From a virus: a DNA stretch of 23,164 bases. The notes beneath the pieces are model-generated. The model was not told where the DNA came from. It searched no databases and saw nothing but the letters and a program-made list of their open reading frames with translations. The DNA is taken from the IMG/VR virus record IMGVR_UViG_3300006919_000481, positions 1 through 23,164 of that record. One strand, given 5' to 3'. Both the position numbers and the translations under genes were made by a program. Shown here piece after piece: positions 855 to 16,414 of the stretch (position 1 is the first letter of the stretch; each line of letters opens with the position of its first letter).

Positions 855-914
855 ATGAACAGGGGACAGCAACCGTTTATGCTGGTTTCCAACTTAACAC
901 AGCAACAGAAATGA
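855..914 (+). CDS. Possible 19-residue leader peptide overlapping the small terminase start
   Basis: ATG at 855 opens a 19-codon frame whose TGA (912-914) overlaps the small terminase ATG (911) as ATGA. The peptide contains QQPFMLVS. It includes a 14-base sequence that recurs in the same reading frame in the small gene at 2290-2436, where it also encodes QQPF. Ribosome site is weak (ACAGGG). Overlap with the hairpin at 862-890 would allow translation to open the structure. It may be chance, because the small terminase has no clear ribosome site of its own but could also start independently. Confidence 0.25.
   Translation: MNRGQQPFMLVSNLTQQQK
862..890 (+). promoter_or_regulatory. Leader hairpin upstream of the small terminase
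   Basis: GGGGA-CAGC (862-870) can pair with GCTG-G-TTTCC (881-890): nine pairs including two G-U, one bulged G at 885, and a 10-base loop. It lies within the predicted 5' leader, ending 20 bases before the terminase ATG, so it could influence translation or mRNA stability. Confidence 0.35.
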
Positions 915-1321
915 ATCAAGGATTACTAAAAGAAAAATCCAGAGAGCTCACCGAAAAACAGCAATCGTTCTTGACAGAACTATTTAAGTGCGGTGGTAAT
1001 ATTACAAAGGCACTAGAGCTGGCTGGTTACAAGCCATCTTCTAGACAGCACGTATTACAGTCTCTCAAGGATGAGATTATAGAACAGGCAAAGGTAGAAC
1101 TTGCAGCACACTCGGTTACAGCAATCAATCGTGTAGTTGAGGGTATGAATGATGTAGGTGAACACCCTAGGGCAGAGTTGCGACTTAAGGCTGCACAGAC
1201 ACTTCTCGACAGGGTCGGTCTGGGCAAACAAGAGAAGATTGATGTAGAAGGTAAGTTACTTCACGGTGTGGTATTGATGCCAGCTAAGAAAGAGATGCCT
1301 ACTGTAAGTGTAGAAGATTAA
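911..1321 (+). CDS. terS: Terminase small subunit
   Basis: The 136-residue protein has the usual small-terminase plan. An N-terminal helix-turn-helix region (about 14-45, LTEKQQSFLTELFKCGGNIT then a second helix ALELAGY) recognises viral DNA. A central helical part (50-105) serves oligomerisation, and the C-terminus is short and polar. It binds the packaging site, recruits the large subunit and regulates its ATPase. Length and position at the head of the packaging module fit the family. It is the first sizeable gene after the perfect promoter at 776-803. No strong ribosome site precedes the ATG, so coupling to the possible leader peptide, or weak initiation, is likely. Its TAA shares a base with the next ATG (TAATG). 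Assignment rests on the HTH pattern and on the large subunit downstream. Confidence 0.8.
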   Translation: MNQGLLKEKSRELTEKQQSFLTELFKCGGNITKALELAGYKPSSRQHVLQSLKDEIIEQAKVELAAHSVTAINRVVEGMNDVGEHPRAELRLKAAQTLLDRVGLGKQEKIDVEGKLLHGVVLMPAKKEMPTVSVED

Positions 1322-2574: not shown

Positions 2575-3315
2575 ATGGTTGATCCAGTTACGGCACTGGC
2601 TACAGCAACTGCAGCTTTTAACGTCATTAAGAAAGGCTTTGAGGTGGGTCGTGACGTGGAAAGCATGTATGGAGATATGGGTAGATGGATGGGTGCTTGC
2701 TCCGATATCAACCAAGCTCAAAAGATGTCGCAGAAGCCTCCGCTATTTAAAAAGATATTTGCGGGTGCGTCTATTGAAGAGGAGGCGTTAAATGCTTTCG
2801 CAGCTAAGAAAAAAGCTCAAGCGATGGAGAATGAACTTAGGACGTTCATTAACCTTGCACATGGGCCGAATGCATGGAATGAACTTTTGCAAATGCAAGG
2901 AAAAATTAGAAAACAAAGACAAGAAATGATTTATAAACAGCAAGAGAGACAGAGAAAGATGATAGAGATATCTTCTATAGCAGTGGTAGCATTACTAGCA
3001 GCAGCCATGATGATATGGATTGCCACAGCAGTAGCTAGTAAAGTAAATGCACACGAACTCTGTGGTGAGTTTAAAACGGGCTACGCTATCTGTATAAACG
3101 AAGGATACGATCAGGCACACGCTAGTATGTTTGGTAAGAGGTTTCCTAAACACGAGAGATATATAAGTTGCAAGCTGTCGGAGTATAGACCATACAACAG
3201 CAACGATATGGAAGGTATGCAATGTAGATACAGATTTCCTAATCAGGATAGTTTTACTATTGTTACCTACGAGGGTATGTGCCCAGAACAATTAACATGT
3301 ACGGTGAGTAATTGA
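2575..3315 (+). CDS. Membrane-anchored phage protein with a Cys-rich C-terminal domain
   Basis: The 246-residue protein has three parts. Residues 1-130 are helical, with a compact N-terminus (VDPVTALATATAAFNVIKKG, then a Gly/Met/Trp segment around 28-42) and a charged helix rich in Lys, Gln and Arg. A transmembrane segment spans 132-154. A C-terminal domain (155-246) carries six Cys (163, 173, 199, 217, 236, 242). By the positive-inside rule the charged helix would be cytoplasmic and the Cys domain periplasmic, where disulfides could form. I recall related N-terminal halves in marine phage genomes without a known function. The ATG at 2575 is preceded by GAGGAAGG about nine bases away. Its TGA overlaps the next gene's TTG start. 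Confidence 0.65.
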   Translation: MVDPVTALATATAAFNVIKKGFEVGRDVESMYGDMGRWMGACSDINQAQKMSQKPPLFKKIFAGASIEEEALNAFAAKKKAQAMENELRTFINLAHGPNAWNELLQMQGKIRKQRQEMIYKQQERQRKMIEISSIAVVALLAAAMMIWIATAVASKVNAHELCGEFKTGYAICINEGYDQAHASMFGKRFPKHERYISCKLSEYRPYNSNDMEGMQCRYRFPNQDSFTIVTYEGMCPEQLTCTVSN

Positions 3316-3539
3316 GAAGAACAACATCAACCATCCCATTTGGATATGAACTATCCGAGGATGGAAAAGAATATATTCCTATAGAGAAAGAATTGGAATT
3401 GTTAGAAAAGGCGTTTACATTCGCAAACAGCTGTGGGCCTGCAAAAGCTGCGAGATGGCTAAGTGTAGCATCGGGTAGGAAGATATCAAATCCCGGTCTG
3501 ACAAAGCGAATGAAAATAGGTGTACACTTAGATAGATGA
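3312..3539 (+). CDS. Small helical protein before the large terminase (TTG start)
   Basis: This 75-residue frame begins with TTG at 3312, overlapping the previous TGA as TTGA, and ends with TGA overlapping the large terminase ATG (ATGA at 3536). No usable ATG exists until near the end, so TTG is the probable start, with GGTGA just upstream. The sequence IPFGYELSEDGKEYIPIEKE, followed by helices ending in GLTKRMK, resembles the helical recombinase region that follows the catalytic domain in serine recombinases. There is no catalytic domain here. It may be a DNA-binding accessory packaging protein; this is inferred from its HTH-like pattern and its position. Confidence 0.6.
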   Translation: MRRTTSTIPFGYELSEDGKEYIPIEKELELLEKAFTFANSCGPAKAARWLSVASGRKISNPGLTKRMKIGVHLDR

Positions 3540-5221
3540 CAGAAGAACAGAAACCAAAAAGAGGTAGACCTCCCAAGAAAGAGGGAGAACCAAAGACGAG
3601 TTATAACTGGTCTAGAAAGATGAAGGCCAGATTGGCTACTCAGAGACAGCTTTCTGAAAAGAAGCGAAGAGCTGAAAGACTGACGAAACAGGCTAAGAAA
3701 GCGAGGCGTTCAGCCAAGGAAGCTCAAGAAGCTGCTGTCAAGGTGGACAATGCTCTGAAGGGAAGACAGAAGTCCGTCAGTGTGATCACAGATGAGGACT
3801 TGAAGAGGGTGCCTCAAGCTGTACGTGAGCATTTACAGCACCATGACGTAGTATTTAGGGCTAACGAAGGCCCACAGACTATGTTCCTTGAGTCACCTGA
3901 AAGAGATGTCTTATACGGAGGAGCAGCAGGAGGGGGAAAATCCTATGCATTACTAGCAGATGTGCTGCGAGATGCATCAAATCCCAACCATAGGGGCTTG
4001 CTGTTAAGAAGAACACTGGCAGAATTGACCGAATTGATAGACAAAAGCAAGCAACTCTATCCAAAAGCGTTCCCCGGAGCTGTATTTAAGGAGGCAAAGT
4101 CCATCTGGCAGTTCCCATCAGGTGCTAGGATATGGTTTTCATACGTAGATGATGACCGAGACGTGACTAGATACCAAGGACAAGCGTTCAATTGGATAGG
4201 AATAGACGAAATTACACAGTATCCCACACCATACGTGTGGAATTACTTACGTTCTCGACTGAGAACAACGGATAAAGACTTAGGAATGTACATGAGATGT
4301 ACAGCAAACCCCGGAGGAACCGGTGGTTGGTGGGTAAAAAAGATGTATATCGACCCAAATCCACCAAATGACCCCTTCTGGGCTAAGGATTTTGACACTG
4401 GTAAGGTTTTAAAGTACCCAGTGAACCACCCAAAGGCCGATCAGCCGTTATTTTTACGCAAATTCGTGCCTGCGAGGTTGACAGACAACCCATATCTGTT
4501 TGATGACGGTCAGTATGAGGCGATGTTGATGTCTCTACCGGAAATAGAGAGAAAAAGGTTGTTAGAAGGTGACTGGGACGTAGCAGATGGCTCTGCTTTC
4601 ACTGAATTTAGCCGTGAGACACACGTTGTAGAGCCGTTTGATGTGCCATCGGGCTGGGCTAGGATACGATCAGGCGATTATGGGTATTCTTCACCCTCAT
4701 GTATCCTCTGGGGAGCCATAGATTGGGACAATAACATATGGATTTATAGAGAACTCTATGTAAAAGGGTTCACAGGAGAAAGGTTAGGAGATTTGATAGT
4801 ACAAATGGAAAGAGAAGACCCACCAATGCAGCAAACAACGCTGGATTCTTCCTGTTGGAACAAAACAGGCTTGGGGCCTTCTATTGCCGAGACTATGATA
4901 CGAAGAGGAGCACGATGGACACCAGCAGACAGGAACAGAATTGCAGGGAAGATAGAAGTCCACAGGAGATTAGCCTGTGATGACCACGGTACTCCTAGGC
5001 TTCGCTTTTTTTCTACGTGCAACAATACAATCAGGACTCTACCTACACTACCTATATCTAAAACTAACCCTGAAGATGTGGATACGAAAGCTGAAGATCA
5101 TGCTTACGATGCGTTGAGGTATATGGTAATGAGTAGAACTCTGATGAATGTGCATTCTCCACATAGGATGACAAGACAGACACAGCAATATGAACCACAA
5201 GATCAGATATTTGGGTATTGA
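3536..5221 (+). CDS. terL: Terminase large subunit (ATPase-nuclease packaging motor)
   Basis: The 561-residue protein drives viral DNA into the prohead and cuts concatemers. The ATPase domain has Walker A GGAAGGGKS (128-136), Walker B with catalytic Glu in NWIGIDE (219-225) and the coupling motif CTANPGG (255-261). The RNase-H-like nuclease domain shows acidic positions expected for metal binding: D381 in SGDYG, D437 in TTLDSS and D521/D525 in DHAYDALRY. Before the ATPase there is an unusual basic, coiled 85-residue extension starting with an AT-hook-like KRGRPPKK (8-15). The start overlaps the preceding stop (ATGA). Codon use differs from the gene that follows: AAG is common for Lys here. 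Confidence 0.97.
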   Translation: MTEEQKPKRGRPPKKEGEPKTSYNWSRKMKARLATQRQLSEKKRRAERLTKQAKKARRSAKEAQEAAVKVDNALKGRQKSVSVITDEDLKRVPQAVREHLQHHDVVFRANEGPQTMFLESPERDVLYGGAAGGGKSYALLADVLRDASNPNHRGLLLRRTLAELTELIDKSKQLYPKAFPGAVFKEAKSIWQFPSGARIWFSYVDDDRDVTRYQGQAFNWIGIDEITQYPTPYVWNYLRSRLRTTDKDLGMYMRCTANPGGTGGWWVKKMYIDPNPPNDPFWAKDFDTGKVLKYPVNHPKADQPLFLRKFVPARLTDNPYLFDDGQYEAMLMSLPEIERKRLLEGDWDVADGSAFTEFSRETHVVEPFDVPSGWARIRSGDYGYSSPSCILWGAIDWDNNIWIYRELYVKGFTGERLGDLIVQMEREDPPMQQTTLDSSCWNKTGLGPSIAETMIRRGARWTPADRNRIAGKIEVHRRLACDDHGTPRLRFFSTCNNTIRTLPTLPISKTNPEDVDTKAEDHAYDALRYMVMSRTLMNVHSPHRMTRQTQQYEPQDQIFGY

Positions 5222-5224
5222 TAG

Positions 5225-7249
5225 ATGACAGATAGATTAGCATTAAAAAAAATAAAAGATTTTAAGTCGTTGGTAGAGCAATTGGAAATATCTTCTATAG
5301 AGGATATTCCTGAATTAGATGATTTAACAGAAAAATTTCAAACTGGTAATGCTTCTCTTAAAGATGCTTGGTTTGCTAAATTATACAAACAAGGTTTAAA
5401 AATACAACAGACTGCTATTAATGCTCCTGAAATGGGAGATTTAAAACAGCTTGCGTTGAACATGCAAAAAAGATTTCCTTCTCAGTTAAAAACAAAAGCG
5501 GGAACCGGATCATTAGCAAGACAAATAAAATCAATGAAAAATAATTTTTCAAAACAAGGGGTGGAGAATGCTCTAGATCAATCTTACTCTAAAGACATGT
5601 TTAAAAAAGGTTTCTCTAGGACTGACGTAAAAGCATTAGACACTGCAGTTGAAACAGTAAAATTAGGTTTAGGAATAAAGCCGGAAGTAAAATCTAAAAT
5701 ATTTAAAAGTATACCTACAAATGAAATGGTAAAAAAAGTTGTAGCAGGTATTGCAAACATACCTGATCAAGAAACTAAAAGATTAATTCTTTTAGGATTA
5801 TTTGGTACTAGAGGAGCTCAAATAAACGATATAACTAGCGATGTATTTTATGGTGAAGATATAGGCAGGCCTTATTATGATCGTGAAAAAGGCATTATGA
5901 TGGGTGTTGAAATTGAAGAAGGTAGAAAAGGTCTAGCCGCTAAAGTTCCTTTTGGCCCCCTTATGAAAGATGTGATGGATTACCAATATGATAAAGCTAC
6001 AGATGGTGGTAAAAATTTAACTAGGGCTTTGTTTAGTGAAGAGTTAAATCTTGGAAATGTTATTAACAAATATTTGTTTAATAAAAATGGTAAACCTGTT
6101 TTAACAGATGGAGAATTAGCTAAATTAGGTAGAACATCAATAGGTGGTTTTACAGATTTAAGAAGAATGATATTATCATGGGCTGCTGATAAAAGTGGAG
6201 AAAAAAAACTGGCAGCTGAACTTTTAACTCATGGTTCAGATGCAGACATGGATAAAAGTGTTACTGGTAGATTTTACATACCGGGTGAAGGAACAGACGT
6301 AAACAAACTACGTGAATTTACAACCGGTATAGAACAAAACATAGCAAAACTTCTTGGTCATAAAAATTACAAATCTTTTATGGATGAAGATTTAGGTTTA
6401 AACATACAGGCGTATGACACAGAGACAAATAAAGTAAAAAAATTTACAAGTAAAGTTGCTGTTCCACAGTTAGAAACCAAAGTCGTACAAGGCAATGTTA
6501 CTAAAACAGTAGAAATTACAAAATCTGCAAAAGATATTGCTAGAGAAGCAGAGGCAGAAAGTTCTCTTAAAGTTACTGAAACAGTTATAGCTGACGAATT
6601 AGCAATAAAAGAAGGTGCTAAAAAATTAGGAATCAGCGAAGATGAAATGAGACAGAGGATTGCTGATAAAACAAAAAAAGGCCCTAAAAAGAAAAAAACA
6701 GTAGTCCCTGCTACAGATACATCTTGGTTTCAAACTATTATTGATGAAGAAGGCTTAGACGTTGATATAAAAACTTTAGAAGGTAAAAGTTGGAAAGAAA
6801 TAAACAAAATACTAGAAACCGCTAGGGCAAAAACAAGTGTAAAACCTGAAGGGCAGGAGTTTAGAACTGACGATATAGATGCTCCAAAAGTAAGAAGTTA
6901 CGGTGCTACATTAGAAGCTACTGCTCCTGATTTTTTAGATTTCGTAACAGACCCAGAAACATTAAAAAAAGCAGGTAAAGTGGCAGCCAATGTAGTTGGA
7001 GGTATTCCCGGAAAAGTATTAAAAACAGGTAAATTTATTTTAGGTAATCCCGTAAAAAATGTAGCAGATAGACCTGTTGAAGACCCTACAGGTGCACAGG
7101 CAGAATTAATGGAAGAAGGAAGACAACAAAGAATACAAGAACAAATGGCGGATATAGAAAGTAAAATGGTAAATGTGCCAGAAGAAAACATTGTTCCTGA
7201 AACGACTGAAGAAAGAACTCAAAGAAGAATGAGTGAATTAGGATTTTAA
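5225..7249 (+). CDS. Large virion-module protein with a tyrosine-recombinase-like domain
   Basis: The 674-residue protein starts at TGA-TAG-ATG directly after the large terminase. Residues about 160-352 follow the order of a tyrosine recombinase (integrase/Xer) catalytic domain. Helices lead to GLFGTRGAQINDITSDVFY (R196 as Arg I, in place of the usual TGxRxxE), followed by a hairpin with K240 (AAKVPF). Next come FTDLRRMILSWAAD (R313 as Arg II, with Thr where His is usual), LLTHGS (H336) and RFYIP (Y351 as nucleophile candidate). Arg II to His spacing is 23 residues, as in the family. Residues 1-130 and 400-674 are extra, charged and unrecognised. Lys is nearly always AAA. Enzymatic activity is uncertain because of the Thr and the long His-Tyr spacing. 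A structural or ejected virion protein is the alternative. Confidence 0.6.
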   Translation: MTDRLALKKIKDFKSLVEQLEISSIEDIPELDDLTEKFQTGNASLKDAWFAKLYKQGLKIQQTAINAPEMGDLKQLALNMQKRFPSQLKTKAGTGSLARQIKSMKNNFSKQGVENALDQSYSKDMFKKGFSRTDVKALDTAVETVKLGLGIKPEVKSKIFKSIPTNEMVKKVVAGIANIPDQETKRLILLGLFGTRGAQINDITSDVFYGEDIGRPYYDREKGIMMGVEIEEGRKGLAAKVPFGPLMKDVMDYQYDKATDGGKNLTRALFSEELNLGNVINKYLFNKNGKPVLTDGELAKLGRTSIGGFTDLRRMILSWAADKSGEKKLAAELLTHGSDADMDKSVTGRFYIPGEGTDVNKLREFTTGIEQNIAKLLGHKNYKSFMDEDLGLNIQAYDTETNKVKKFTSKVAVPQLETKVVQGNVTKTVEITKSAKDIAREAEAESSLKVTETVIADELAIKEGAKKLGISEDEMRQRIADKTKKGPKKKKTVVPATDTSWFQTIIDEEGLDVDIKTLEGKSWKEINKILETARAKTSVKPEGQEFRTDDIDAPKVRSYGATLEATAPDFLDFVTDPETLKKAGKVAANVVGGIPGKVLKTGKFILGNPVKNVADRPVEDPTGAQAELMEEGRQQRIQEQMADIESKMVNVPEENIVPETTEERTQRRMSELGF

Positions 7250-7277: not shown

Positions 7278-7520
7278 ATGCCAAAAGGAACTTACGATAA
7301 AGGTTACATCATGGGACAAATGTCCAAACAAGGTGTAATGAACGAGGCTAACGAAGGTTCTCTATACAGAGAAGGTTTAGATCAGATGTTGTTAGGCTCT
7401 ACAGACCTTAATTCCTACAATGTGGCAACCCCAAAACCAGCTGGAAACAGACATATGGGTCAAGCAGGTTACATCATGGGGCAGACACAAAAGCAAGGCT
7501 ATCAAGGCACAGAGGGTTAA
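7278..7520 (+). CDS. Small Gly/Gln-rich protein with a repeated GYIMGQ motif
   Basis: The 80-residue protein has AGGAGG (7267-7272) five bases before its ATG. It contains two copies of an eleven-residue motif, GYIMGQMSKQG at 9-19 and GYIMGQTQKQG at 64-74, joined by a charged centre. The first 14 bases of each copy are identical (GGTTACATCATGGG), but the rest differ at many positions, as expected for an old duplication under protein-level constraint. It has no signal peptide or membrane segment. The strong ribosome site suggests high expression, and its place just before the portal suggests a small virion component. I do not recognise a named family. Confidence 0.65.
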   Translation: MPKGTYDKGYIMGQMSKQGVMNEANEGSLYREGLDQMLLGSTDLNSYNVATPKPAGNRHMGQAGYIMGQTQKQGYQGTEG

Positions 7521-7523
7521 TAG

Positions 7524-9632
7524 ATGAGTGATCCTGTAGACGTATCTACAGAACTTGACGATAGTCAAGCTCCGGGACTTGTAGGTTTAATCAATGGTTA
7601 TCAGCGAGAGGCAGAAAACGGTAGATTAGTTCATGAAGAACGCTGGCTAAAGGCTTATAAGAACTTCAGAGGTGTATACGACTCTAGTACACAGTATACA
7701 GACACTGAAAAGTCTAAAGTATTCATAAAAATAACCAAAACTAAAGTGTTGGCTGCCTACGGGCAGATAGTAGATATCTTATTTGCAAACAAGAAGTTTC
7801 CACTTACTGTGGAATCTACGCCTGTACCTGAAGGTATAGCTAAGTTTGCACATTTGAAAACACCGATAGATGAAATGAAAAGTCCCTATGGGTTTGAAGG
7901 AGATGGTAGAGAAATGCCACCCGGAGCTACTCAAGCCACAGAACCAGACTATTTAGGTGGTCTGAAAGAAAAATATGAAGGTGCACCGATAGCACAAGGG
8001 CCTGCTTTGATGGGAGAACCACAAATATCTCCTGCACAGGAGGCAGCAATGCGTATGGAGAAGGTTATACACGATCAATTGACAGAATCCAACGCTGTAA
8101 GCACGTTACGAAATTCTATATTTGAGTCTGTATTATTAGGTACAGGTATCGTAAAAGGCCCTTTTACACATACAAAAACGGTGCATAAATGGCAAAAAGA
8201 CGACAATGGTGAGAGAATGTACTCACCGTACTATAGAGATGTACCAAGAATAGAATCTGTATCTTGCTGGGATTTATATCCAGACCCTATAGCAACGAAC
8301 ATACACGATGCAGATTATGTAATACAAAGACACAGGATGAACAGAGAACAGCTTCGTGGTCTTATGGACATGCCGATGTTCGACCCTGATGCTATTAGAA
8401 CTGTGTTGACAGGTGGTGGAAACTACATAGATAAGTATTTCGAGAGTTTAATTAGAGATGATGAGTATCTATCAAGAGCTGCAAACGAAAGATATGAAGT
8501 ATTAGAGTATTGGGGTGCTGTAGACGTATCTTTTCTTCAACAGATAGGAAAAGATGTAGGCGATGTAGACCCATTGGGTAAAGTACAGATAAATGCATGG
8601 ATATGTGGTAATCAGGTATTGCGTGCTGTAATCAACCCATTTACACCCCACAGAATACCATATCAGGTATTTCCATATGAAATAAGCCCTTATCAAGTGT
8701 GGGGCATTGGAGTACCAGAGAACATGGAAGATGCACAGATGTTAATGAATGGTCATGTAAGAATGGCTATTGATAACTTGACACTTGCAGGTAATTTAGT
8801 ATTTGATATAGATGAAACATCATTAGTTCCCGGACAGAATTACGATATATTTCCGGGTAAGATATTCAGAAGACAGTCTGGCGTTACAGGAACAGCAGTA
8901 AATGGTATTAAGTTCCCTAATACCGCTGGTGAGAACATACAGATGTATGATAAAGCTAGACAGTTGGCTGATGAAGAGACTGGGATTCCCAGTATTATGC
9001 ATGGGCAGACAGGCGTTAGTGGCACAGGCAGAACAGCAGCTGGCCTATCAATGTTGTTAGGTTCGGCTGGTTTATCCATAAAAACGGTGATTAAAAACAT
9101 GGATGATCATCTTTTGAAACCGTTGGGAGAATCACTATTTCAATGGAACATGCAGTTTAACGATGAACAGCCTGACATTGTAGGAGACTTAGAGATCAAA
9201 CCAAAAGGTGTGTCTTCTGTAATGCAGAAAGAAGTACGTTCACAAAGACTGACAATGTTACTACAGACAGTGGTAAACCCAATGTTAGCTCCGTTCATTA
9301 AGATTCCTAATCTTATAAAAGAACTAGCTATCTCACAAGATATTGATCCGGACAGTTTAGTCAATGATATTAACCAAGCTCAAATATACGCAGAAATGCT
9401 GAAAGGAATGCAAAATGCCCAACAACCAACAGAACAACAACAATCAGGAGGTGCTGAAGCAGCTCTCCCCGGTAGTGAACAACCCGCAGGTATGGCAGGC
9501 CCTACAGAAGCTCCTTCAGGGGCTCAACCTTCAGACCTTACAGGGGCTGGTAACGGCACAATCGGAACTGGAGCTGTACCGACTGCAGGGGAAAGCCAGT
9601 TTGCTGGCAATGCTCCTCAACTTGAAGAATAA
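7524..9632 (+). CDS. Portal protein
   Basis: The 702-residue protein forms the dodecameric ring through which DNA enters and leaves the head and to which the tail adaptor binds. Evidence is the size, the position after the large terminase and before scaffold and coat, and the sequence. An N-terminal region has LVGLINGYQREAE and ERWLKAYKNFRGV, a central clip/stem region follows (including ESVLLGTGIVKGPFTHTK), and then a long alpha-helical wing. The style resembles P22-like and other podovirus portals. The last 70 residues are Gln/Gly/Pro/Ala-rich and probably disordered. They are overlapped in the +1 frame by another gene (9415-9669). The ATG follows TAATAG, with AGAGGG about seven bases upstream. 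Confidence 0.9.
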   Translation: MSDPVDVSTELDDSQAPGLVGLINGYQREAENGRLVHEERWLKAYKNFRGVYDSSTQYTDTEKSKVFIKITKTKVLAAYGQIVDILFANKKFPLTVESTPVPEGIAKFAHLKTPIDEMKSPYGFEGDGREMPPGATQATEPDYLGGLKEKYEGAPIAQGPALMGEPQISPAQEAAMRMEKVIHDQLTESNAVSTLRNSIFESVLLGTGIVKGPFTHTKTVHKWQKDDNGERMYSPYYRDVPRIESVSCWDLYPDPIATNIHDADYVIQRHRMNREQLRGLMDMPMFDPDAIRTVLTGGGNYIDKYFESLIRDDEYLSRAANERYEVLEYWGAVDVSFLQQIGKDVGDVDPLGKVQINAWICGNQVLRAVINPFTPHRIPYQVFPYEISPYQVWGIGVPENMEDAQMLMNGHVRMAIDNLTLAGNLVFDIDETSLVPGQNYDIFPGKIFRRQSGVTGTAVNGIKFPNTAGENIQMYDKARQLADEETGIPSIMHGQTGVSGTGRTAAGLSMLLGSAGLSIKTVIKNMDDHLLKPLGESLFQWNMQFNDEQPDIVGDLEIKPKGVSSVMQKEVRSQRLTMLLQTVVNPMLAPFIKIPNLIKELAISQDIDPDSLVNDINQAQIYAEMLKGMQNAQQPTEQQQSGGAEAALPGSEQPAGMAGPTEAPSGAQPSDLTGAGNGTIGTGAVPTAGESQFAGNAPQLEE

Positions 9633-9669
9633 TTTTGATCAGATGAAAAAGGAAGATAAGAAAAAATAA
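9415..9669 (+). CDS. 84-residue helical protein overlapping the portal 3' end out of frame
   Basis: The gene overlaps the portal C-terminus for 218 bases in the +1 frame, continues 37 bases past the portal stop, and its TAA shares a base with the next ATG (TAATG). AGGA (9404-9407) is seven bases before its ATG. The protein begins with an Asn/Gln run and then reads like a genuine helical protein. VVNNPQVWQALQKLLQGL is followed by SELELYRLQGKASLLAMLLN and a Lys-rich tail. The pattern P-x-V-W and L-Y-R-x-Q-G-K-x-x-x-L resembles, as I recall it, small proteins that follow the portal in other marine podoviruses. In the overlap the portal is low-complexity, so it can tolerate the second frame. A role in the portal vertex or scaffold is inference. 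Confidence 0.65.
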   Translation: MPNNQQNNNNQEVLKQLSPVVNNPQVWQALQKLLQGLNLQTLQGLVTAQSELELYRLQGKASLLAMLLNLKNNFDQMKKEDKKK

Positions 9670-11021
9670 TGGCTTTACCACAAACAAATCAAGGATTTTT
9701 AGGTAATATAGAAACTGTAAATACAGATGTTACATCTGAGAGTGTGCCTAGTGCTTTTTTAGGTAAAGAAGCTCTACAGCCAACTTATGAAGTAGCATCT
9801 TTACAGAGAAATATTCCTACTGTTCCTACCATTGATGTAACAGGCAGTGGTGATTTGTACAGTGGTTCAAACGATCTTAGTTACATTGTGGACTTGACAA
9901 CAGACCCTGAGACTATAAAGAAAAGAAGAGAAGAAGAAAAAAAGCTAAGAGCAAGATTAGACCCAGATGTAGACCCTTTGTTTGCTACAGACCCCGGAGT
10001 AGATATTACAGCTGCGGGTATCTCTGCTAACGTGCCAGATTTTAAAGTAGAAGGTACAGGGCCTACTATTGAAAGGGGTAGGTTAGATACCTCTACAGAC
10101 ATTACAGATAGAATTGTAAGATTTGGAGAAGCTGTAGAATTAGGTAGTAGAGTTGTTAGTGATCCTTTTAAGATAGATTTTTTGAAAACAGAGGTAAAAG
10201 AACAAGTTACAGGAGCTGGCCAAAAAGCTGCTGGAGAATTAGTTAAGGACTTATTTAAATCTGGCGTGCCGTATAGAGATGTTGCTAATCCTTTTGCTAC
10301 ATCTTACCAAGCAGCCACTGTTCCAAACCCCGCTACTTCTTCTTATCAACCTAGGCTTGTAAAACCCGGTGGCCCTCTTGCTGGTACTGGTTCTTCTACA
10401 AGTAGTTTTATGAGCACTGCTGGAAAAGTAGCAGGAGCAGCCGGAGCAGCATTTTCTGCTTATAATGCATATGATGCTTTTAAACAAGGAGATACTTTGG
10501 GTGGTTTAACAAATGCAGCAGCCACCGCAGCTTTTTTCATACCCGGAATGCAGCCTGTAGCAGCGGCTCTAACTGCTTTAAACTTCGTAAGTGGGTTTAG
10601 AAAAGGTAAACCAAAACCGGGCATGGGTGGTTCAGAAATTAAATATGATAAAGACACTGGTCAGTTAGCTCACAGTATGACTTGGAGTTACAACGGTTTC
10701 AATCCATCACAGGCTAAACAGCATACAGATAAAGCCATAAAATTTGTAAACGATTATATGAAAGAATTTAACGTAAAATTAAATCCTGAAAAATTTCCAC
10801 AGGGACAATCTAATTGGCAGTATCTATCTAGAATAGATGTGAGTCCTTATAAAAACGGATCACAAAGTGCCGGTGAGTTAATAGAAAGATGGATGTCTTC
10901 AGGAGCATTTACTGGTAATCCTTCTTATTATGATGCAGACGCAGGGGAGAGAAGATTTTTTACATCACAAGAAGAATATGAAGCTGCAGTAAACAATTTT
11001 TCAAACAGAGTATTTTCGTAA
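9669..11021 (+). CDS. Probable internal virion or DNA-ejection protein
   Basis: The 450-residue protein starts at a TAATG junction. Residues 1-240 are polar, Thr/Pro/Asp-rich and low in predicted structure, with a short charged coil at 80-100 (KKRREEEKKLRARL). Residues 248-310 form an Ala/Gly-rich hydrophobic region (AGKVAGAAGAAFSAYNAYDA, then FKQGDTLGGLTNAAATAAFF) that could insert in or cross a membrane. The remainder is a soluble domain. Such Ala/Gly hydrophobic hairpins in large proteins near the portal are typical of ejection proteins that form a channel through the host envelope. No homologue is identified from memory, so this role is an inference. Lys is mostly AAA. The holin follows ten bases after its stop. 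Confidence 0.55.
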   Translation: MALPQTNQGFLGNIETVNTDVTSESVPSAFLGKEALQPTYEVASLQRNIPTVPTIDVTGSGDLYSGSNDLSYIVDLTTDPETIKKRREEEKKLRARLDPDVDPLFATDPGVDITAAGISANVPDFKVEGTGPTIERGRLDTSTDITDRIVRFGEAVELGSRVVSDPFKIDFLKTEVKEQVTGAGQKAAGELVKDLFKSGVPYRDVANPFATSYQAATVPNPATSSYQPRLVKPGGPLAGTGSSTSSFMSTAGKVAGAAGAAFSAYNAYDAFKQGDTLGGLTNAAATAAFFIPGMQPVAAALTALNFVSGFRKGKPKPGMGGSEIKYDKDTGQLAHSMTWSYNGFNPSQAKQHTDKAIKFVNDYMKEFNVKLNPEKFPQGQSNWQYLSRIDVSPYKNGSQSAGELIERWMSSGAFTGNPSYYDADAGERRFFTSQEEYEAAVNNFSNRVFS

Positions 11022-13853: not shown

Positions 13854-14810
13854 ATGGCTACTATGTCATCCGCTGCCGGATACCAAAACTTACCGGTTGG
13901 TAACTGGGCACCAGCGATATACAGTCAAAAAGTTCTCAAATATTTCCGTAGGGCATCAGTCGTAGAAGCTATTACTAATACTGACTACACTGGGGAAATC
14001 GAGAATTTTGGCGATACGGTAAACATCATCAAAGAACCAACTATCACAGTCAAAGACTATGCTAGAGGTCAAACTGTAAATACAGAGAACCTAGACGATA
14101 ATCAAATTCAATTGACTATCGACCAAGGTAGTTACTTTGCATTTAAAGTAGATGATATCGAAGAAAGACAGTCACATATCAACTTTGAAGCATTAGCAAC
14201 CTCTTCAGGTGCTTATGCATTAAAGAAGAATTATGACTATAATGTGTTAAAGTACATTTTTGATAACGCTGTAGCATCTACAGGTACATTAGGAACTCAA
14301 GGCACATCAGCAGACACTGGTGACAAAATTGCTGACCTTGTAGCTCAAGCTGCTGCTGAATTAGATAAAAATGACGTACCAGAAGAAAACAGATGGCTTG
14401 TTGCACCACCTCAATTTTATCAAAATTTGAGAGGAGCAGCATCTAAAATTATGGATATGTCTGTAACTGGTGGAGGAGCATCTCCTTTACTAAACGGTAG
14501 AGTTACTGATAGTAAATTACATGGTTTTGATTTATATCAAACTAATGCAATTGGTGTCGGTACTACTGGTAGTGCAGCTACTCAGATTTTTGGATCATCA
14601 AGCACAGCTGGTCAAACATTAATCCTATACGGACATATGTCTGGTGTTGCTACTGCATCTCATATTGCAAAGACTGAAGTGATAAGAGACCCAGATAGTT
14701 TCTCTGACATCGTAAGAGGATTACATGTTTATGGTAGAAAAGTTCTAAGAGCTGAATCTGATACAGGCTTCAAAGGCGTGTTCAAAGGGCTTATGGACTT
14801 AGACTCTTAA
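13854..14810 (+). CDS. Major capsid (coat) protein
   Basis: The 318-residue protein has AGGAGG (13841-13846) seven bases before the ATG, the strongest ribosome site of the head genes, as expected for the most abundant virion protein. The sequence pattern is that of an HK97-fold coat. NFGDTVNIIKEPTITVKDYA (residues 52-71) and the following ENLDDNQIQLTIDQGSYFAF and KVDDIEERQS belong to the E-loop/P-domain-like region. They are followed by a helical core with LDKNDVPEENRWLVAPPQFY and a C-terminal FSDIVRGLHVYGRKVL. No delta-domain or cleavage site is evident. It resembles coat proteins of marine podovirus-type phages. Codon use is more mixed than in the neighbouring AAA-rich genes. Confidence 0.93.
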   Translation: MATMSSAAGYQNLPVGNWAPAIYSQKVLKYFRRASVVEAITNTDYTGEIENFGDTVNIIKEPTITVKDYARGQTVNTENLDDNQIQLTIDQGSYFAFKVDDIEERQSHINFEALATSSGAYALKKNYDYNVLKYIFDNAVASTGTLGTQGTSADTGDKIADLVAQAAAELDKNDVPEENRWLVAPPQFYQNLRGAASKIMDMSVTGGGASPLLNGRVTDSKLHGFDLYQTNAIGVGTTGSAATQIFGSSSTAGQTLILYGHMSGVATASHIAKTEVIRDPDSFSDIVRGLHVYGRKVLRAESDTGFKGVFKGLMDLDS

Positions 14811-16257: not shown

Positions 16258-16414
16258 AGCGAAGATGATGAAAGGCGGAATGGCTAAGAAAAAAATGATG
16301 GGCGGAGGAAAGAAGTCCAAATATATGGCTAAAGGCGGTATGAAGAAATCTAAATACATGGCTAAAGGCGGTATGAAGAAGTCAAAGTACATGTCAAAAG
16401 GCGGCAGAAGATAA
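16229..16414 (+). CDS. Lys/Met/Gly-rich tandem-repeat protein
   Basis: The 61-residue protein is about one-third Lys and very rich in Met and Gly. Residues 28-60 are three tandem copies of KKSKYMAKGGM (the third ends SKGGR). Earlier segments KMMKGGMAKKKMMGGG look like degenerate versions. Such a basic, Gly-rich chain should be disordered and could bind DNA, RNA or an acidic protein surface. The gene overlaps the previous one by 29 bases and has AAAGGA six to seven bases before its ATG; its stop touches the ATG of another very basic small gene. It may be packaged with DNA or act in assembly, both inferred. Confidence 0.65.
   Translation: MPGRKTTKNKAKMMKGGMAKKKMMGGGKKSKYMAKGGMKKSKYMAKGGMKKSKYMSKGGRR
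16310..16408 (+). repeat. Three 33-bp in-frame tandem repeats
   Basis: Units at 16310-16342, 16343-16375 and 16376-16408 each encode eleven residues. The Ser codon is TCC, TCT and TCA in turn, and other third positions differ too, so the repeat is conserved at the protein level rather than being a fresh DNA duplication. Confidence 0.9.

Follow-up and report, generated by a model that had tools for sequence, protein, structure and literature searches.

Putative tyrosine recombinases in a hypervariable single-gene slot between the terminase and portal genes of HMO-2011-like marine podoviruses

Described recombinases and the gene behind the terminase

Tyrosine recombinases and phage integrases (PF00589; XerA, XerC-like enzymes, XerH, lambda Int and Tn1549 Int) share with the proteins described here, which are encoded in a slot between the large terminase and portal genes, the R-K-R-H-Y order of catalytic residues and a match to the catalytic-domain profile. 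The slot recombinases differ from them in being about twice as long, in possessing a C-terminal tail, in lying within a late operon, in their extreme allelic turnover and in the lack of any attachment site that could be found. Within the same phage group, the canonical integrase (int) of HMO-2011-type phages is likewise a tyrosine recombinase with a non-His DLRR box, but it measures only about 290–370 aa, is located upstream of the replication module and is not matched by the slot profile; no genome in our dataset was found to have both. Many HMO-2011-type isolates carry such an ordinary integrase elsewhere. The int of CRP-3, a phage of this type, was reported to be functional and integrating, and HMO-2011-type phages have been described as dominant in the ocean (PMC9038755). 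Protelomerases (TelK, TelA) are tyrosine recombinases of a length similar to that of the slot protein, which is set apart from them by the absence of a profile match and of a palindromic target near the gene in the DNA analysed. The internal proteins of phage T4 are injected, highly diverse and share only a capsid-targeting sequence (PMC3012670). Such T-even proteins (IPI etc.) serve here as a working analogy only, namely that of proteins which vary greatly and yet keep a short conserved targeting sequence; they are small inhibitors unrelated to the slot recombinase, for which carriage in the virion has not been shown. No paper on a recombinase slot between terminase and portal was found, with the reservation that our coverage of the literature was partial.

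The DNA analysed (IMG/VR record IMGVR_UViG_3300006919_000481, 23,164 nt; hereafter the window) covers part of the genome of an HMO-2011-like marine podovirus, a virus of bacteria. The closest terminases from isolates are those of HMO-2011, CRP and HTVC phages (47–56%), and a 32-kb contig (L002, G001) is 99.9% identical to the window across the compared part. Going by terminase kinship, Pelagibacterales, SAR116 or Roseobacter are candidate hosts of the phage group. An earlier note, made from the sequence of the window alone, had pointed to a 674-residue ORF between the large terminase and the portal, and both its size and its position were as claimed (Table 1): it starts 3 nt past the stop codon of the large terminase and ends 28 nt ahead of an 80-aa ORF. 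Elsewhere in the window, a glutamine riboswitch aptamer (2385–2434, + strand; Rfam RF01739, 52.5 bits, E 4e-9) was detected upstream of the ORF 2575–3315, and three 33-nt tandem repeats at 16301–16399 encode repeats of the KKSKYMAKGG type.

Table 1. Coordinates of the recombinase gene, its neighbours and its predicted domains and residues in the window
Feature	Position	Strand	Evidence or remark
Small terminase	911-1321		
Large terminase, conserved upstream flank of slot	3536..5221	+	
ORF of slot tyrosine recombinase, 674 aa	5225..7249	+	Homologues in same slot
N-terminal all-helical part (residues 1–150), probable core-binding domain	5225..5674	+	AlphaFold2 model of residues 1–430; role inferred
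Catalytic domain (residues about 164–360)	5714..6304	+	Profile alignment to XerC-like, lambda Int and others; hhalign to phage integrases
R196, catalytic Arg I	5810-5812	+	R in 116/116 alignment rows
K235 of 'EEGRKGL', probable catalytic Lys	5927-5929	+	Alignment with gaps
TDLR box (T310 at usual His position; R313, Arg II)	6152..6163 (R313 6161-6163)	+	R313 in 116/116 rows
H336, His/Trp position	6230-6232	+	H 71, R 43, gap 2 (116 rows)
Y351, nucleophile	6275-6277	+	Y 99, gap 17, no substitution (116 rows)
C-terminal extension (residues 415–674), low confidence, amphipathic/hydrophobic stretch	6467..7246	+	Variable among close relatives
Extreme C-terminus MSELGF, member of recurring GF-type terminal motif	7229..7246	+	
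80-aa ORF, conserved downstream flank of slot, between recombinase ORF and portal	7278..7520	+	
Portal protein, SU10 type	7524..9632	+	
Head protein	13854-14810		

Relatives were gathered from IMG/VR via the terminase, which yielded 240 loci with a terminase frame; in 211 of them the terminase is immediately followed by a frame of 150 aa or more (160 distinct). Complete proteins numbered 124, and 117 of these were 541–809 aa long, including two isolate portals and one Clostridia protein; about 114 are true slot proteins (540–809 aa). An iterative profile seeded with the window protein recovered 131 of the 160 distinct slot-position proteins. About 160 distinct proteins occupy the slot in uncultured HMO-2011-like marine podoviruses. 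The slot recombinase is absent from the isolates HMO-2011, HTVC115P, CRP-212 and phiM6, no such gene was found by tblastn of the window protein against 50,697 records of deposited phages, and a plasmid search with the terminase as query returned distant matches only.

Family assignment and active site

Taken alone, the window protein has no match in Pfam, PHROGs, NCBIfam or PDB. A core profile built from 116 rows, in turn, matched tyrosine recombinases exclusively in PDB at E<0.1, with the XerC-like enzyme (1.1e-13), Tn1549 Int (1e-9) and lambda Int (2e-8) followed by XerH (7.5e-7), XerA (4.6e-6) and XerD (7e-6). A profile from 25 slot sequences found no PDB recombinase; more sequence diversity was needed. 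Among single slot proteins, 18 of 67 matched PF00589 and 19 of 67 the phrog_1 integrase. When the window's own cluster was compared by hhalign with a profile of ten phage integrases, an E-value of 0.007 was obtained (0.6–0.9 after column shuffles), with R, DLRR and GH aligned in register; pooling of all slot cores improved this to 1.7e-8 (probability 95%), and with the four closest sequences alone the integrases went undetected. The profile search that the earlier note had proposed as a check on its tyrosine-recombinase-like core thus reaches the integrase and Xer families from the relatives in the slot, and not from the window sequence by itself.

The AlphaFold2 model of residues 1–430 is confident over the core (mean pLDDT 82.7) and has N-terminal helices at residues 2–19, 31–39, 45–56, 68–83, 94–110 and 132–146, with low confidence around 337–354, where Y351 is located. 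Foldseek of the model against PDB gave no significant match (P2 Int, TM 0.50 by target). With the full-length model, the best matches in BFVD were unnamed (probability 0.99–1.00, E 4e-3 to 9e-3), and a named tyrosine integrase appeared at probability 0.80. Since the model is weak at 337–354 and without a significant PDB match, the family assignment rests on the profiles and on the conservation of the active site rather than on the model.

The order R, K, R, H/W, Y of the tyrosine recombinase superfamily is satisfied, the window itself having a His at position 336. R196, R313, H336 and Y351, all named in the earlier note, proved to be conserved far above chance in the 116-row alignment, and in a second alignment the nucleophile position is occupied by Tyr in 113 of 114 rows. 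That note would have been refuted by relatives in which R196, R313 and Y351 vary freely, which is not what was observed, neither Arg being substituted in any row of the 116-row alignment and Tyr in none of its rows where it is aligned. The other outcome that would have spoken against it, a predicted fold lacking the recombinase core, did not arise either, on a model that is weak around the tyrosine. Its choice of K240 as the catalytic lysine has to be corrected: this position is Lys in only 5 of 116 rows, and the conserved lysine is K235 (25 of 26 in a set of 28 sequences; 74 of 77 ungapped rows in the second alignment). At the position of T310 most relatives have S, T, Y, K, G or R, and the usual His is likewise missing from the canonical integrases of two sister phages (HMO-2011, 'MDLRR'; CRP-212, 'RDLRR'). 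A subgroup of slot proteins (43/116; e.g. L006, L024 and L072) has Arg for His at 336, which is unusual among tyrosine recombinases. Based on the profile matches to solved recombinases, the Pfam and PHROG integrase matches of relatives and the invariant catalytic residues, we consider it well supported that the ORF encodes a tyrosine recombinase with a full catalytic residue set, DNA cleavage itself being inferred.

Allelic turnover in the slot

The slot between terminase and portal takes up a single, hypervariable gene, of which the window carries one allele. In pairs of loci with TerL at least 98% identical, the recombinase core has a median identity of 26%, against a shuffled background of 22%, and lies below 35% in 80% of the pairs, whereas the median for the portal is 81%, and no pair drops below 35% there. 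At the level of DNA, an upstream identity of 90–98% ends at the start codon, and homology returns at the stop codon (L006, L007 and L010). In the comparison with L007, identity amounts to 96% up to position 5227 (start codon) and again from 7234 (gene end), and inside the gene the two share no more than a stretch of 146 nt, in the tail region. Another locus, L003, has the same core as the window with a different tail. The upstream stretch 281–1343, including a non-coding region, stays conserved across the allele change.

A minority of relatives encode unrelated proteins of 200–355 aa in the slot (L043, 9671–10636; L046, L048, L052, L053 and L068). Most of these end in ..YAMGGKVYSNSVRKPKFK or similar, a tail of the same kind as that of the window ORF 1321–2016, which carries a zinc-peptidase-like HEIKH motif and terminates in GGKVYANQPRKVRV. 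At the DNA level, L007 and L010 match neither this ORF nor 2018–2293, and the region hence represents a second variable slot. A third was noted behind the portal at 9702–10596, i.e. the N-terminal two thirds of the ORF 9669–11021, which differs from L007 between flanks that are 88–96% identical.

The most hydrophobic 19 residues lie within the last 180 aa in 97 of 117 proteins. A short GF-type C-terminal motif recurs on otherwise unrelated tails: it was present in the last 15 residues of 72 of 115 proteins (shuffled mean 10, maximum 19; 1–7 in other tail windows). Among the 69 non-redundant tails, 42 contain it within their last 25 residues (shuffled 7). The pattern was defined post hoc, after inspection of the tails, and about a third of them lack it. 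A PxxAxA-type motif behind the hydrophobic segment occurred at only about twice the shuffled level and is not claimed.

Possible roles of the slot recombinase

A profile search of eleven contigs of 32–57 kb found exactly one slot recombinase in nine of them. In 19 long contigs PF00589 had three matches, all of them slot proteins, and neither PF00589 nor the slot profile revealed a second tyrosine recombinase outside the slot in the long contigs. Families listed for the two 55–57 kb contigs and G001 include family A DNA polymerase, DnaB-like helicase, endonuclease I and ribonucleotide reductase. The earlier note had considered the gene unlike a normal integrase, which is upheld by its position in a late operon, its length, its long variable C-terminal tail and the lack of a second recombinase in the long contigs.

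The main rival to a virion-carried enzyme is a plain temperate-phage integrase that has moved to the late region, its allelic diversity reflecting different host attachment sites. The complete set of catalytic residues would be expected of it, and long contigs with the slot recombinase lack the canonical int, the reverse being true of HMO-2011 and CRP-212, which fits a functional replacement. Integrase swapping is also known in some temperate phages. Against this stand the size of the protein and the packaging operon in which its gene sits, where the adjoining non-coding DNA, just 0–5 nt on the upstream and about 30 nt on the downstream side, leaves no space for an attP outside the gene. In line with the earlier note, no attachment site was found, though only by weak tests: no tRNA fragment was scored in the window or the two 55–57 kb contigs, and a limited pattern search of the genome collection returned no prophage. 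A small HTH_3 protein is missing from 10 of the 11 contigs, but its presence in G001, the contig of the window's own phage, means that lysogeny is not excluded. We regard a plain integrase as unlikely, without being able to exclude it.

The sharp edges at start and stop codons, with the allele change limited to the ORF, might also point to a self-moving cassette, in which the enzyme would swap the gene that encodes it at the borders of the slot. Homologous recombination in the conserved flanks would leave such edges too, no core sequence common to both edges was seen by eye, and the tail alone can be exchanged (L002 versus L003), all of which makes a cassette improbable. The earlier note had also offered an enzyme that resolves concatemers or termini. 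In favour of a protelomerase-like resolvase of concatemers, dimers or hairpin termini of the phage's own genome, the gene adjoins the terminase; the size and the non-His HxxR box also recall protelomerases. We hold it to be very improbable, as alleles of the gene replace one another in phages whose packaging genes are otherwise almost identical and whose flanks and 281–1343 region are conserved, without a co-varying phage site being seen; in addition, no long palindrome was found near the gene in the window, and the profile reaches Xer and Int and no protelomerase in PDB. Least probable of all, in our view, is an exapted fold, the last suggestion of that note, here taken as a non-catalytic protein that serves structure or regulation. 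The replacement of H336 by Arg in some relatives could be taken in its favour, but both Arg and the Tyr remain unsubstituted over proteins mostly 11–25% identical to the window protein.

The reading that we prefer, to which we assign a probability of roughly 0.4, is that of a late-made, probably virion-carried tyrosine recombinase from a multi-allelic locus. Its family, active-site conservation, slot position, allelic turnover and single copy per genome are observed; late expression, carriage, delivery, target and catalysis are inferred. The protein would consist of a helical DNA-binding N-terminal part, the catalytic domain and a tail of roughly 260 residues. Its gene belongs to the packaging operon, which makes late synthesis, alongside the head proteins, the most likely timing, and the gene position suggests that virions may carry the protein. 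Docking into the procapsid most likely occurs through the tail and the motif that recurs at its C-terminus, and the recombinase would then enter the next cell together with the phage DNA. That the enzyme cuts DNA is inferred from the conserved active site; once delivered, it would cleave and rejoin DNA at allele-specific sites in the host chromosome, prophages or other mobile elements, and the allelic turnover makes a fixed target within the packaging region of the phage improbable. This is the simplest model to unite these points, and it would have the enzyme work much as the diverse T4 internal proteins do, without belonging to their family. Of the three functions considered in the earlier note, a virion-carried recombinase remains the most likely one, in the absence of proteomics or expression data. 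A more specific version, in which the slot is a hypervariable arsenal of virion-carried alleles, each targeting a different DNA site of the host or of a competing element, is doubtful.

The locus turns over faster than its near-identical neighbour genes, a sign of strong selection that may act on DNA-target specificity, and the slot supplies more than 100 divergent uncharacterised recombinases. As most slot proteins escape single-sequence annotation, wrong conclusions may be drawn about how these phages live. Furthermore, the delivery of site-specific recombinases by phage virions becomes a testable question, and the arsenal, if true, would represent an injected counter-defence or inter-element weapon of abundant marine phages without other signs of lysogeny.
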